Assembly (NCBI RefSeq): GCF_900113715.1
Contig: NZ_FOQK01000013.1
Span: 1-64,000, forward strand
Reading direction: 5' to 3'
Length of the DNA: 64,000 nt
Source of the DNA: Pseudoselenomonas ruminantium
GTDB lineage: Bacteria > Bacillota > Negativicutes > Selenomonadales > Selenomonadaceae
A model generated the notes under the pieces. It had not been told where the DNA came from. It saw nothing but the letters and a program-made list of their open reading frames with translations, and made no database searches. Of the stretch, positions 43,943 through 58,565 are shown piece by piece. The first letter of the stretch is position 1; the number at the start of each line of letters is the position of its first letter. Made by a program: the position numbers and the translations under genes.

Positions 43943-43959
43943 AAAGCCACTCCTCTCTC

Positions 43960-44092
43960 TATTCGCCTACGAGGTTAGCTGCCGGGCTCGGGTAGAGAAG
44001 ACCACCCGCGTCAATTTCACGCTTGCCGTGAGCCTGACGTTCGCCCCAAGAAATTGGTTCCCCCGCTCCTGGGTTGGATTCGGCTTGTTCCA
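43960..44092 (-). promoter_or_regulatory. Cyclic-di-AMP riboswitch (ydaO/yuaA type)
   Basis: Read on the minus strand, this leader has the ydaO-yuaA conserved blocks in order: GCCGAATCC, GGAGCGGGGGAACCAA, GGGGCGAAC, GAGCCCGGCAGCTAACCTCG, and GTAGGCGAA. It ends about 20 bp before the NlpC/P60 start. This class binds c-di-AMP, usually turning genes off, and very often precedes cell-wall hydrolases. Boundaries are approximate and the pairing was judged by eye. Confidence 0.88.
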
Positions 44093-44221
44093 TCCTTTAT
44101 AGAACCCAATGTATATAATACGACAAAAGCCGTCGTATTCCTGCTATTTTTTAAATATTCTCTTATTTAGTCTTAATGCGGCTTATTCTTTCATCTTCTT
44201 TTCAGAAAACATCCAGACATG

Positions 44222-44261: not shown

Positions 44262-44631
44262 ACGTTGCTATAAGCAATCAATAAGCCGAGTTTTGTTCCG
44301 CTTGCGCGGTGACAATCATTTATCTAGGCACGGCAGTTGCCTGCCGGCTCAAGCGACTCAACCCGGAAGGTTCCGCGGGCCGCATCATCCCTTCCCTATT
44401 TGGTCTTGCTCCGTGTGGGGTTTACCCAAGCCAGCCAGTCACCTGACTGCTGGTGCGCTCTTACCGCACCTTTCCACCCTTACCTGACAAGCAGGCGGTC
44501 TAAATCTCTATGGCACTTTCCCTAAGGTCACCCTCGCTGGACGTTATCCAGCACACTGCCCTGTGGAGCCCGGACTTTCCTCATCTGGCGTCAAGCGCCA
44601 GCCGCGATTGTCTTGACAACTTATATCAACG
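44262..44631 (-). ncRNA. rnpB: RNase P RNA (bacterial class A)
   Basis: The minus strand carries the hallmark GAGGAAAGTCCGGGCTCCA, then CAGGGC, GGTAAGGGTGGAAAGGTGCG-type segments, AACCCC near the middle, and ACAAAACTCGGCTTAT at the 3' end (usual form ACAGAACCCGGCTTA). The ends pair: 44620-44630 with 44264-44274, one mismatch, giving helix P1. About 370 nt, the usual size. This is the catalytic RNA that trims tRNA 5' ends. The 5' end is placed from the promoter. Confidence 0.95.
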
Positions 44632-55043: not shown

Positions 55044-55523
55044 TCAGTCCGAACGGCGGGAACCACGGCCTCCGCGTTTCGAGTCCGTCTTGCGGCGCAA
55101 GTCCGTTAGACGCTCATCGCTGTCCTTGAGGAAGCGCGAGAGCTTATCCTCAAAGGATGCCGAGGTATTGTTGAAACGATTATTCGGTTTCCGGAAATCA
55201 CGCGGCCCGCGTGCAGGACGCGGCGTCCGGAAGGAAGAATTATTCGTGGCGGCATGCTGCTGGGTAGTGGCATGTTCCTCTGGTTTCTTCTCCTGAGTCT
55301 GCTTGATGGAAAGACCGATCTTGCCCTTCTCATCAATCGTCAGGACCTTGACTTTTACCTTATCTTTTTCTGCGAGGAAGTCATGAACATCCTTTACATA
55401 AACATCTGCGACTTCCGAAATGTGGACGAGACCAGTCTTACCCTCTGGCAATTCGATGAATGCACCAAAGTTCGTGATGCCGCTTACGACACCCTCAACC
55501 ACACTGCCAACTTCAATGGACAA
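55044..55523 (-). CDS. S1 RNA-binding domain protein (YabR-like)
   Basis: A 159-residue protein. An S1 domain (about 1-75) contains VGSVVEGVVSGITNFGAFIE, GKTGLVHISEVAD and KVKVLTIDEKGKIGLSIK. The remaining half is a disordered basic tail (RPARGPRDFRKPNNRF, DSKRGGRGSRRSD). Bacillus YabR, next to divIC, has the same plan. It probably binds RNA or ribosomes; no specific partner is known. It lies between the DivIC-like gene and tilS. Confidence 0.88.
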   Translation of the reverse strand: MSIEVGSVVEGVVSGITNFGAFIELPEGKTGLVHISEVADVYVKDVHDFLAEKDKVKVKVLTIDEKGKIGLSIKQTQEKKPEEHATTQQHAATNNSSFRTPRPARGPRDFRKPNNRFNNTSASFEDKLSRFLKDSDERLTDLRRKTDSKRGGRGSRRSD

Positions 55524-55602: not shown

Positions 55603-55899
55603 TCATTTGCTGCGCCCGGTCGTATAGGGCAATTCCCCCGCCCGGGTCATCCCGAGTTCTTCCCGGGCAATCTTCTCGATATACCCCAGTTCATTGAGTT
55701 TTTCTTTCTCCTGCCGCAGAGCTTCATTCTCCTTCTGCGCGGCGGCCAGCCGGGCCTCTGCTGCGGCCTGGTCCTGGCCTACCTGGCGCAGGTAAAGCTG
55801 CTGCGAGATGAGAATCGAGGAAAAATAGACTACACTGCCAACCATCAGGATAAAAAACCAGCTGAACCGGCGTTTTTTCTGTTGTCTTTGGCGCTGCAT
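55603..55899 (-). CDS. DivIC/FtsL-type septum formation initiator
   Basis: A 98-residue bitopic protein: basic cytoplasmic start (MQRQRQQKKRR), one membrane helix (WFFILMVGSVVYFSSILIS) and a coiled coil (ARLAAAQKENEALRQEKEKL), then YIEKIAREELGMTRAGEL, the DivIC/FtsB signature. It belongs to the division complex that activates septal wall synthesis. The ATG at 55899 has GGGGGG six bases upstream. Next to the yabR-like gene as in Bacillus. FtsL is less likely because of the C-terminal motif. Confidence 0.87.
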   Translation of the reverse strand: MQRQRQQKKRRFSWFFILMVGSVVYFSSILISQQLYLRQVGQDQAAAEARLAAAQKENEALRQEKEKLNELGYIEKIAREELGMTRAGELPYTTGRSK

Positions 55900-55975: not shown

Positions 55976-56452
55976 TTATTTTTCTGACCACTGGAAATAA
56001 TCGGTTGATGCTATCCGGCGGAATTTTGATGAACAATGCGGACAATCAAAATGATCTTTGACGTTTTCCATATCCGCACGGCCATCCACGATGCGGACGG
56101 CCTGTCCCTCAACGAAATCCATCTTCTGGCCGCAACGCGGGCAGACACATTGATTGTTGACATCCTTCTTGAGGATCATCGGCTCAAGATCGCCAGTACG
56201 GCGGACATTGAGCACCTTGGTTTTAGGCTGCTGCGGCAGATCGTGCTCATCGAAGAACCCCGATCCCAGCAGCTCCTGAAAATATATGCCACAGTGATGG
56301 CACTCGTATTTCGGCAATATGGCAGACATATCCGCCCGCCCATCGACAATCTGTACGGCCGTGCCATCGACAAACCGAAGATTCCCCTGGCATTTCGGAC
56401 AGAGATATTGCCCCTTATCATTTTTTGCTAACTGGTAAACGGCCATTTCCAT
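55976..56452 (-). CDS. Unrecognised protein with two duplicated zinc-ribbon modules
   Basis: About 158 residues made of two copies of one module. Copy 1 has CPKC, FVDGTAVQIVDGRADM and CHHC; copy 2 has CPRC, FVEGQAVRIVDGRADM and CPHC. Each pair of CxxC motifs should bind one zinc, and the VDGRADM between them is nearly identical in both. No membrane segment or signal is visible. The start is uncertain (ATG at 56452, 56446 or 56476). It lies where Bacillus has yabP/yabQ, between the glycosyltransferase and DivIC genes. I do not recognise the family. Confidence 0.7.
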   Translation of the reverse strand: MEMAVYQLAKNDKGQYLCPKCQGNLRFVDGTAVQIVDGRADMSAILPKYECHHCGIYFQELLGSGFFDEHDLPQQPKTKVLNVRRTGDLEPMILKKDVNNQCVCPRCGQKMDFVEGQAVRIVDGRADMENVKDHFDCPHCSSKFRRIASTDYFQWSEK

Positions 56453-56550: not shown

Positions 56551-57684
56551 TTACTGACCACTGTCCGCCTGGATGAAAGCTGCAATCGCGCAGGCAATCT
56601 TCTGCGCAGCTTCAGGCCGCGCACAGGCAAGCGCCCGCTCAGACATCGCTTGCAGGCAGCCCTCGGCAAACAGTTCCTGTACCGCCGGTGCCAGCTTCTC
56701 GCCGGGATGGAGCCAGACAGCCGCACCATGACGTGTCGCATAGACGGCGTTTTCAGTCTCCGGTCCGGGGATGGGATCGTGCAGCAGCATCGGCAGCCCG
56801 AGCACGAAGGCTTCACTGATGGTCAGTGCCCCTGGCTTGGTGATCAGCAGGTCGGCTGCCCGCATGAGCTCATGGGCCTTATCGGTATATCCCCAGAGCT
56901 TCACCAGATGATGCGAGGTGCGGGCAAACGCCCGTACCTCATTGAGCAGCCGTGCATTGCGCCCGGCAATCACCAGCAGTGTCAACTGCTGCGGCAGCTT
57001 CTCCAAAGCCTGCAGGGTGGCTTGGATGCCTCCCAGTCCCAGGCCGCCGCCCATCAGCAGCACGGTCGGCTGTTCCAGCGGCAGCGAAAAACGCTGGCGC
57101 AGCTCTGCCTTCGGCGGCAGGCTGCGCAGATTGCTGTCCACAGGAATCCCTGTTGCCTGCAGTGTCTCCGCCGCAAAGCCACAGGCTGTCATCTCTGCCT
57201 GCATCGCCGCCGTCGCCATGAAATACTGATCGACCTGCGGGTACAGCCAGATCTGATGCAGCGAGTAATCCGTCATGACCACAGCCAGCGGCAGCTGGCT
57301 ATGCTGGCGTCGTTTCCATAGGGATACCGCTCCCTCTGGGAACGGATGCGTGCAGATGATGGCCGTCGGCTCATATCTGCGGATGAGGCGCTTCACCACC
57401 GGCTGCATGACAGCAGCAAAGGCACTCTGCACCAGCGAACCGCTCGCCGCCCCGCCAGACACCTTGTAGAATACATCATACAGATTCGGGACAAAGGCCA
57501 GCATGACAAGATAGATCTTCTTCATCAGCCAATGGAGCCAGGCCGTATCGCGCGCCATGAAATCCACCGTGGTGAGCACGGCTTCCGGCAGCTGCCGCTG
57601 CATCTCCTTGGCCACGGCCTCGGCTGCCTTGATATGGCCTGAGCCGATCGATGCCGTCAGTATGAGTATCCTGTCTGCCTTCAT
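56551..57684 (-). CDS. MGDG-synthase/UgtP-like glycosyltransferase
   Basis: About 377 residues, GT-B fold. The N-terminal ILILTASIGSGHIKAAEAV is the lipid-acceptor motif shared with monogalactosyldiacylglycerol synthases, UgtP and MurG; LLMGGGLGLGGIQATLQAL and KPGALTISEAFVLGLPMLL are the nucleotide-sugar-binding region. It probably glycosylates diacylglycerol or a similar membrane lipid. ATG at 57684 has AAGGA upstream. The sugar and acceptor cannot be read from sequence. Confidence 0.88.
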   Translation of the reverse strand: MKADRILILTASIGSGHIKAAEAVAKEMQRQLPEAVLTTVDFMARDTAWLHWLMKKIYLVMLAFVPNLYDVFYKVSGGAASGSLVQSAFAAVMQPVVKRLIRRYEPTAIICTHPFPEGAVSLWKRRQHSQLPLAVVMTDYSLHQIWLYPQVDQYFMATAAMQAEMTACGFAAETLQATGIPVDSNLRSLPPKAELRQRFSLPLEQPTVLLMGGGLGLGGIQATLQALEKLPQQLTLLVIAGRNARLLNEVRAFARTSHHLVKLWGYTDKAHELMRAADLLITKPGALTISEAFVLGLPMLLHDPIPGPETENAVYATRHGAAVWLHPGEKLAPAVQELFAEGCLQAMSERALACARPEAAQKIACAIAAFIQADSGQ

Positions 57685-57732
57685 CTTGTTCCTTCTCTCC
57701 GTTGAAATCATACCCGCCTATTGTATCACATT

Positions 57733-58497
57733 TCAGGCAGTCAGGCCACCATCGACCCCCCAGACCGCACCGGTCACGAACGCCGCAGCCGGTGAGGCCA
57801 GAAAAGCGATCAGCGCTGCCGCTTCCTCCGGCGTGCCGATGCGCCCCAACGGATAGACCGAGGCCATCTCGCGCAATGCCTGTTCCCGGTCAGGCATCGC
57901 TGCCAGCTGCTTTTCTGTCAGCGGCGTCAGGATGTCCCCCGGGGCGATGGCGTTGACGCGCACGCCGAAGCCAGCCAGCTCCAAGGCCAGCGCCCGCGTG
58001 AACATGACGACTGCCCCCTTGCTGGCACAGTAAGCCGTGCAATAGTAATTGCCATGAACACCAGCATCCGAAGCCACGTTGACGATATTGCCGTGCATCT
58101 TCTTGAGCGCCGGAACCGCCAGCTGGCATAGATAATACGTCCCCTTGACGTTGATATCAAGTACCTCTTCGAGCTGTGCTTCACTCACGTCCTCGATGGC
58201 ACCTTCGCAGTAGACACCAGCGGAATTCACGAGCACATCGAGCTGTCCCCAGCGCTTCAGCACCGTATCCACCGCCAGCTGGCAATCCTCGCGCCGGCTC
58301 ACATCACAGGGCTGGAAAGATGTCCGCTCCCCTGCCGCCAGCTGAGCCAGTGCCTCCTGGCCGTGCTTCACGGACCGCCCGAGCAGCATCACCTTGGCTC
58401 CGGCCTGCAGGAACTCACGGGCAGCGGACAGTCCGATCCCCGAAGTACCGCCAGATATCATGACCACCTTGTCTGTCATCCGCATATCCATTTCCAT
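57733..58497 (-). CDS. Short-chain dehydrogenase/reductase (FabG-like)
   Basis: A 254-residue SDR. SGGTSGIGLSAAREF is the NAD(P)-binding glycine motif, NSAG the structural motif, Ser in NVASDAG and YCASK the catalytic Ser, Tyr and Lys, and GVDGGLTA the usual C-terminus. It reduces or oxidises an alcohol/ketone, but not necessarily a fatty-acid intermediate, as no fab genes are nearby. GGGAG lies just before the ATG. Confidence 0.9.
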   Translation of the reverse strand: MEMDMRMTDKVVMISGGTSGIGLSAAREFLQAGAKVMLLGRSVKHGQEALAQLAAGERTSFQPCDVSRREDCQLAVDTVLKRWGQLDVLVNSAGVYCEGAIEDVSEAQLEEVLDINVKGTYYLCQLAVPALKKMHGNIVNVASDAGVHGNYYCTAYCASKGAVVMFTRALALELAGFGVRVNAIAPGDILTPLTEKQLAAMPDREQALREMASVYPLGRIGTPEEAAALIAFLASPAAAFVTGAVWGVDGGLTA

Positions 58498-58511: not shown

Positions 58512-58543
58512 AAAAGGGCCGGGTTCCCGAAGGAACCCGGCCC
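58512..58543 (-). terminator. Rho-independent terminator of the HU gene
   Basis: GGGCCGGGTTCC (58516-58527) pairs perfectly with GGAACCCGGCCC (58532-58543). On the minus strand the loop is a TTCG tetraloop closed by C-G, and TTTTC follows. Confidence 0.85.
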
Positions 58544-58565
58544 TGCTTTTATGCTTTTGCTATCC

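Follow-up and report, generated by a model that had tools for sequence, protein, structure and literature searches.

An uncharacterised tandem zinc-ribbon protein family encoded beside glycosyltransferase and division genes in Negativicutes

Relation to described zinc-ribbon families

Small stand-alone zinc-finger proteins with two C(P)XCG motifs are described for Haloferax (HVO_0758 and HVO_2753) in the available part of PMC10716476, a zinc ribbon is present in Mut7-C proteins (PMC1779556, in excerpt), and UgtP of Bacillus subtilis has been suggested to be a metabolic cell-size sensor (PMC7578834, in excerpt). The protein examined here, which we call ZnR (tandem zinc-ribbon protein), is encoded in the window, the whole 64,000-nucleotide stretch of DNA that was analyzed. 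With the Mut7-C RNase ribbon (PF01927) it shares a long spacing between CxxC pairs in the same register, and a whole ZnR module pairs with positions 81-133 of that 146-position profile, the C-terminal ribbon only. Unlike Mut7-C RNases, ZnR consists of tandem modules with a tail of their own and no nuclease part; no PIN-type nuclease domain was found in ZnR proteins, which consist of ribbon modules, and the window protein falls below the PF01927 cut-off (16.1 against 23.3). A PF01927 search was negative in all 41 genomes, the window's own included, and in locus L184, from another family, which gave a partial Mut7-C hit, no forward ORF passed our filter for two CxxC pairs at a suitable spacing.

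At E 0.001 the FmdB-type ribbon (TIGR02605) matches all 16 of the close relatives and, of 33 diverse members, 16; its best stretch on the window ZnR covers only profile positions 20-50 of 52. The C-terminal module of the window protein alone scores 25.0, L117 (22.6) and L047 (16.0) lie below the cut-off, L099, L112 and L113 give no match, and a match across both knuckles and the whole ZnR family was not found. UPF0434/Trm112p-type proteins (PF03966) stand near the top of the structural matches to the full ZnR model (Z 3.8-4.3), with Z values within 1 of those of unrelated ribbons; 2jr6 (Z 3.8) is titled UPF0434, and we take 2pk7, 2jny and 2hf1 to be members of the UPF0434/Trm112p-type family. 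At the sequence level, PF03966 matched in none of 41 genomes, the window's own included, in a search that was positive in 8 of 14 control genomes. The HVO_0758 structure (8q5b) aligns with the full model at Z 3.8 and with the C module at Z 2.8, but ZnR lies far below the NCBIfam cut-offs of the Haloferax small proteins, has another spacing and tail, and the Haloferax proteins are without such tandem repeats. Similarly to UgtP, the glycosyltransferase (GT) encoded next to ZnR is of the broad UgtP/MGDG-synthase type (PF06925) and its gene lies beside a division gene, yet it scores 235 against a cut-off of 500 with the diglucosyl-diacylglycerol synthase model, and of any counterpart to the UgtP-division coupling gene order alone is known here. 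Searches of the literature collection found nothing joining Selenomonas ruminantium with a zinc ribbon, only a heliorhodopsin paper (available in part) for Negativicutes and zinc ribbon, and only an unrelated paper for a described divIC-yabPQ-tilS-ftsH cluster.

An earlier note on this DNA, made from the sequence alone, had stated that ZnR matches no known family. This stands in that no curated family explains ZnR and no well-described one fits it. The window protein passes the cut-offs of TIGR02605 (36.1 against 31.3) and PF13453 (23.9 against 22). Other members pass other cut-offs, namely L117 that of PF01927 (33.1 against 23.3), L047 those of PF03119 (32.5 against 25.8) and PF20020 (28.3 against 26.6), and L031 that of PF13453 (24.5 against 22); such variation from protein to protein is as expected for short, cysteine-rich sequences. 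Among diverse full-length members the commonest Pfam matches at E 0.01 were Mut7-C and DUF6431 (26 of 33 each), and the single-module proteins had no matches in Pfam at E 0.001 or in NCBIfam at E 0.01. Identity with a known family was rejected, as searches of Pfam, NCBIfam and PHROGs yield nothing beyond scattered zinc-ribbon scores. None of the libraries searched contains a model dedicated to the ZnR family, which looks like an uncharacterised, conserved, unnamed family on the common zinc-ribbon fold.

Gene, modules and predicted fold

The ZnR ORF fills positions 55976-56452, as the earlier note had it, and lies on the minus strand, which that note left unstated. It holds 158 residues from the start given there; translation probably begins at the ATG at 56446, because M3 is an invariant methionine in 16 aligned proteins, so that an end at 56452 would be two residues too many. 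The features of the gene are as follows.

55976..56446, minus strand: ZnR coding sequence, 156 residues from the probable start MAVYQL
56390..56401, minus strand: module 1, first CxxC
56327..56347, minus strand: module 1, VDGRADM block
56291..56302, minus strand: module 1, second CxxC
56147-56149, minus strand: module 2, extra cysteine two residues ahead of the first CxxC
56132..56143, minus strand: module 2 (C-type), first CxxC
56069..56089, minus strand: module 2, VDGRADM block, its DG forming a hairpin turn in the model
56033..56044, minus strand: module 2, second CxxC
55979..56020, minus strand: module 2, conserved tail RRIASTDYFQWSEK

Each of the two copies comprises a CxxC, 29 residues that include VDGRADM, a second CxxC and a tail. 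The duplication described in the earlier note is borne out: a gapless 60-residue alignment of the two halves scores 138, whereas 2000 shuffles with the cysteines kept in place score 26.7 +/- 5.6 (maximum 61). The gene is real, given that dN/dS is 0.04-0.12 in 7 of 12 species pairs (dS exceeds 2 in two of the seven; the other five gave no value), and it is under purifying selection. Zinc binding by the modules is presumed from the sequence.

Among 125 distinct ZnR proteins, 93 have two modules, 18 have four, 12 have three and two have one. The modules fall into an N-type (the first), a middle and a C-type (the last) class; N-type and middle tails resemble [RQ]E[LV]L.[ST]G[FY]YD, C-type tails resemble RR[IL]A.T[DN]YFQW.E, and linkers between modules measure 16-75 residues between profile hits. 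The four cysteines are aligned in all 282 distinct modules. Most C-type modules (109 of 117 distinct ones) have a fifth ahead of the first CxxC, against one of 47 middle and none of 118 N-type modules, and it is missing from one of the two single-module proteins. In the C-type tail R52, T57 and Q61 are each present in 117 of 117 distinct modules, and Y59 in 109. The C-type module comes last in 124 of 125 proteins, a count in which the C-type module of L177 scored just below the limit of our script and was filed as middle; the exception, L178 (1362-2183), is a three-module protein without a C-type module. In genus g10, L048 (1214-2041) and L128 (1-825) carry a degenerate middle module (19.6 bits), which in L048 retains its four cysteines, and no DivIC was seen downstream of ZnR in either locus.

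A FastTree phylogeny of the 282 modules, based on about 65 columns, places N-type and middle modules opposite C-type modules with one exception, which would fit L177, and the single-module proteins join the branch between the two sides (support 0.78 and 0.97). This suggests a single-module ancestor, one old duplication into N and C types, and later repeats of the N-type.

According to the earlier note, the VDGRADM block was better conserved than the rest of the protein and marked a functional surface. The alignment does not confirm the better conservation, as block and tail are about level, with mean column identities of 0.71 (N-type), 0.74 (middle) and 0.77 (C-type) for the seven-residue block against 0.73, 0.75 and 0.79, respectively, for the 13-residue tail after the second CxxC. 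Besides the cysteines, the tail is the most constant part of ZnR modules. Exact VDGRADM was rejected as a family signature, being present in 11 of 296 modules (5 of the 123 N-type, none of the 50 middle and 6 of the 123 C-type ones); only two of the 125 proteins, that of the window and its nearest relative L031, have it in both modules. What is retained is the block glycine, which never varies in N- or C-type modules and is 94% conserved in middle ones, and an aspartate three residues past it (91-96%). In the C-module model the block DG lies at a turn between short strands (39-41 and 44-46), and the likeliest reading of the block is as an element of the fold.

Structure prediction, as the earlier note had proposed, gave a ribbon-like model of the C module (pLDDT 83, pTM 0.66, from 27 sequences), with six strands and no helix as long as four residues; the full-length model was weaker (pLDDT 74, pTM 0.42). 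ZnR has the marks of a zinc ribbon, with two CxxC knuckles per module and, in the C-module model, predicted beta-strands and a hairpin between and after them. With Foldseek, neither model had a match at E 0.001. In fold comparison the best match of the full model was 2pk7 (Z 4.3, rmsd 3.0 over 52 residues), and the C module reached at most Z 3.4 (rmsd 2.3 over 39 residues); the matches of both models are generic ribbons, and the UPF0434 chains from the full-model comparison do not recur in the C-module match list. Solved structures searched by sequence held no credible relative, the best E value of the profile being 0.00012, to tau, with no stretch passing on its own.

Distribution and gene neighborhood

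To assess the distribution of ZnR, we used both the window protein and a single-module profile (A1, built from 13 C-type modules), the latter as the earlier note had suggested. The window protein matched in 34 of 60 genomes, comprising 22 of 22 in its genus (its own included), 10 of 15 in the rest of the family and 2 of 23 in the rest of the class. All 16 loci found in named public genomes belong to Selenomonas, 10 of them labelled S. ruminantium, and are 53-94% identical. Of 380 genomes in the class, 130 matched the A1 profile (128 of them in the window's family), as did 6 of 398 genomes in a sample of the phylum, all again in that family. The two matches outside the family (G040 and G052), one genome in each of two other families, encode a single-module ZnR and were first detected with the window protein, so that their detection is independent of their own presence in A1. 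Absence outside one strain, named in the earlier note as what would count against the family, is thus not the case; relatives in the genus, the family and two distant genomes rule out a one-strain oddity. A phage or plasmid origin was likewise rejected, as tblastn at E 0.001 found nothing in either of the two collections. ZnR is missing from several genera.

The minus-strand order around ZnR is Mfd, MazG-type, HU, SDR, GT, ZnR, DivIC, S1, TilS, Hpt and FtsH. The identities of HU, SDR, GT, DivIC and S1 are backed by family searches; Mfd, the MazG-type protein, TilS, Hpt and FtsH are what we take the remaining neighboring ORFs to be from reading them. The closest features are these.

58515..58544, minus strand: 13-pair hairpin between HU and SDR, then TTTTC on the minus strand
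57733..58497, minus strand: SDR-type dehydrogenase, upstream of GT
56551..57711, minus strand: GT, MGDG-synthase-type glycosyltransferase (PF06925, 103 bits), upstream neighbor of ZnR
55603..55899, minus strand: DivIC-type septum protein (PF04977, 55 bits), downstream neighbor of ZnR
55044..55523, minus strand: S1-domain RNA-binding protein, next downstream

The division (DivIC-type) and lipid-glycosylation (MGDG-synthase-type) neighbors that the earlier note had named are therefore as described, and the conservation of neighbors that it proposed to check is high, with DivIC downstream in 121 of 123 family loci and GT directly upstream in 86 of 118 judgeable ones (five loci end too soon). DivIC lies within 400 bp in 108 loci, at 1.1-1.2 kb in 13, and was not seen in two. 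Of the 32 loci without GT, 30 belong to genus g13, in which no locus with room upstream has GT there, and the other two are from G252 (g42) and G160 (g2). By coordinates, GT lies immediately upstream of ZnR in the same orientation in 89 of the 95 genomes in which both genes were placed. Thirteen g13 loci have an ORF in the roughly 1.1-1.2 kb between ZnR and DivIC, parts of which, in L099 (4540-5650) and L115 (5297-6412), resemble a methyltransferase by appearance.

SDR, GT, ZnR and DivIC may form one transcription unit, with the HU-SDR hairpin as a possible upstream limit, because that hairpin lies between HU and SDR and a sigma-70 pair matching 12 of 12 positions (TTGACA, 18, TATAAT; 55593-55564, minus strand) lies between DivIC and S1. 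The terminator scan listed the hairpin for the plus strand only and is noisy, with 7 sites against 2.9 expected and two on the minus strand inside ZnR and DivIC. Elsewhere in the window, a c-di-AMP riboswitch and an RNase P RNA (43948-44095 and 44267-44623, minus strand) score far above the Rfam gathering scores.

G052 has GT followed by single-module ZnR, a PBP_like_2 phosphate-type binding protein, a permease, two further genes (the first of which, by appearance, looks like a permease), YabP, YabQ and DivIC, with PhoU, an ABC ATPase and a histidine kinase on the other side; in G040, GT and ZnR lie near PhoU and an ABC ATPase. GT is next to the single-module ZnR in both distant genomes and an adjacent DivIC in neither, and the DivIC adjacency seen in the family could, to judge from these two genomes, have arisen by loss of intervening genes. 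Because the GT/ZnR region holds PhoU and phosphate-type transport genes, the arrangement suggests a glycolipid synthase linked to phosphate limitation in the two distant genomes. Loci L113 (3714-10455) and L112 (5606-10725) show GT and a single-module ZnR amid PhoU and phosphate-type transport genes.

An obligate partnership of ZnR and GT was rejected, each occurring without the other. ZnR occurs in at least 13 genomes in which no GT match reaches 1e-20 (G033, G160, G196, G200, G202, G212, G216, G217, G218, G223, G224, G225 and G249; G033 is 99% and G202 100% complete, and several others are fragmentary), and four genera (g6, g8, g9 and g11) have GT without a ZnR match, so neither needs the other. 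In L103-L106, one genome from each ZnR-less genus, a DivIC-looking gene stands between GT and S1 in three, and in L104 no DivIC-like ORF was picked there. The GT tree, which has long branches, groups the GTs of G040 and G052 with that of family genus g40 and requires at least four presence changes, with G252 and G197 counted as bearers since their ZnR is elsewhere in the genome. ZnR seems to have been lost in the lineages of L103 (g11) and L104 (g9), because their GTs fall among those of ZnR bearers.

Possible roles of ZnR

The best explanation, which we place at a probability of just under 0.4, is that ZnR is a soluble, multivalent protein-binding adaptor or regulator, co-expressed with the SDR-GT-ZnR-DivIC envelope and division unit; its adaptor role and partner are what we infer. 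The soluble protein would consist of structural zinc-ribbon modules on flexible linkers, in which the zinc sites would hold the fold and the VDGRADM block would be a hairpin of that fold. The ancestral gene, with a single module, would have followed directly on a membrane glycolipid synthase gene in some Negativicutes; in the Selenomonas-containing family, duplication would have produced an N-type and a specialised C-type module, and the N-type would have multiplied further in some genera. The functional surface would most likely be each module's tail ([RQ]E-LL-SG-YY in the N-type, RRIA-TDYFQW in the C-type). We prefer an adaptor to its rivals because the charge is near neutral, no membrane segment was found in ZnR proteins, and conservation outside the cysteines peaks in the tail. 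The range of one to four modules, the linkers, the terminal place of the C-type, the neighborhood and the dN/dS values are also counted in its favor; the separate occurrence of ZnR and GT and the distant genomes without an adjacent DivIC count against it, and tail conservation could be structural.

ZnR could instead be an RNA- or DNA-binding regulator, acting for instance on its own operon or on transcripts shared with the S1 protein, a reading that we regard as tentative and somewhat less probable. The S1 gene lies in the same cluster, the ZnR tail has a conserved arginine, fold comparison of the models brings up RPB9 and topoisomerase ribbons, and the weak sequence matches are to ribbons of nucleic-acid proteins, including the Mut7-C RNase matches at E 0.01 given above. 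However, the matched fold has many other uses, short cysteine-rich proteins score easily, and a net charge of 0 for the window protein and of 0.1 on average over 125 proteins is unusual for such binders.

Trm112-type proteins activate methyltransferases, and by analogy ZnR might be a small enzyme activator or chaperone, in the first place of the neighboring GT. The position of GT directly upstream in most family loci and in both distant genomes, together with the UPF0434 matches of the full model (2jr6 and 2pk7), would agree with this, but a Z of 4.3 is not specific, PF03966 is absent from the genomes searched, at least 13 genomes, two of them 99-100% complete, have ZnR without a GT match, and four genera have GT without ZnR, all of which makes such a role unlikely. 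A metal reserve, metal carrier or redox switch acting through the cysteines, to which the further cysteine of most C-type modules might point, is very improbable, as that cysteine is absent from N-type, nearly all middle and one single-module protein and the conservation outside the cysteines exceeds the needs of a store.

To return to the adaptor, its boldest extension would have ZnR couple glycolipid synthesis to septum formation in Negativicutes, N- and C-type modules holding different partners such as GT and DivIC, in parallel to the link between UgtP and division in Bacillus; this we consider a long shot. The varying number of N-type modules and the constant C-type offer a natural series of one, two, three and four modules for relating valency to partner binding. 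If the role of ZnR is ordinary, its profile is still one absent from the libraries searched. Negativicutes are Firmicutes with an outer membrane (PMC5007114, in excerpt), and ZnR would bring an unnamed, lineage-restricted repeat family into their envelope and division cluster.
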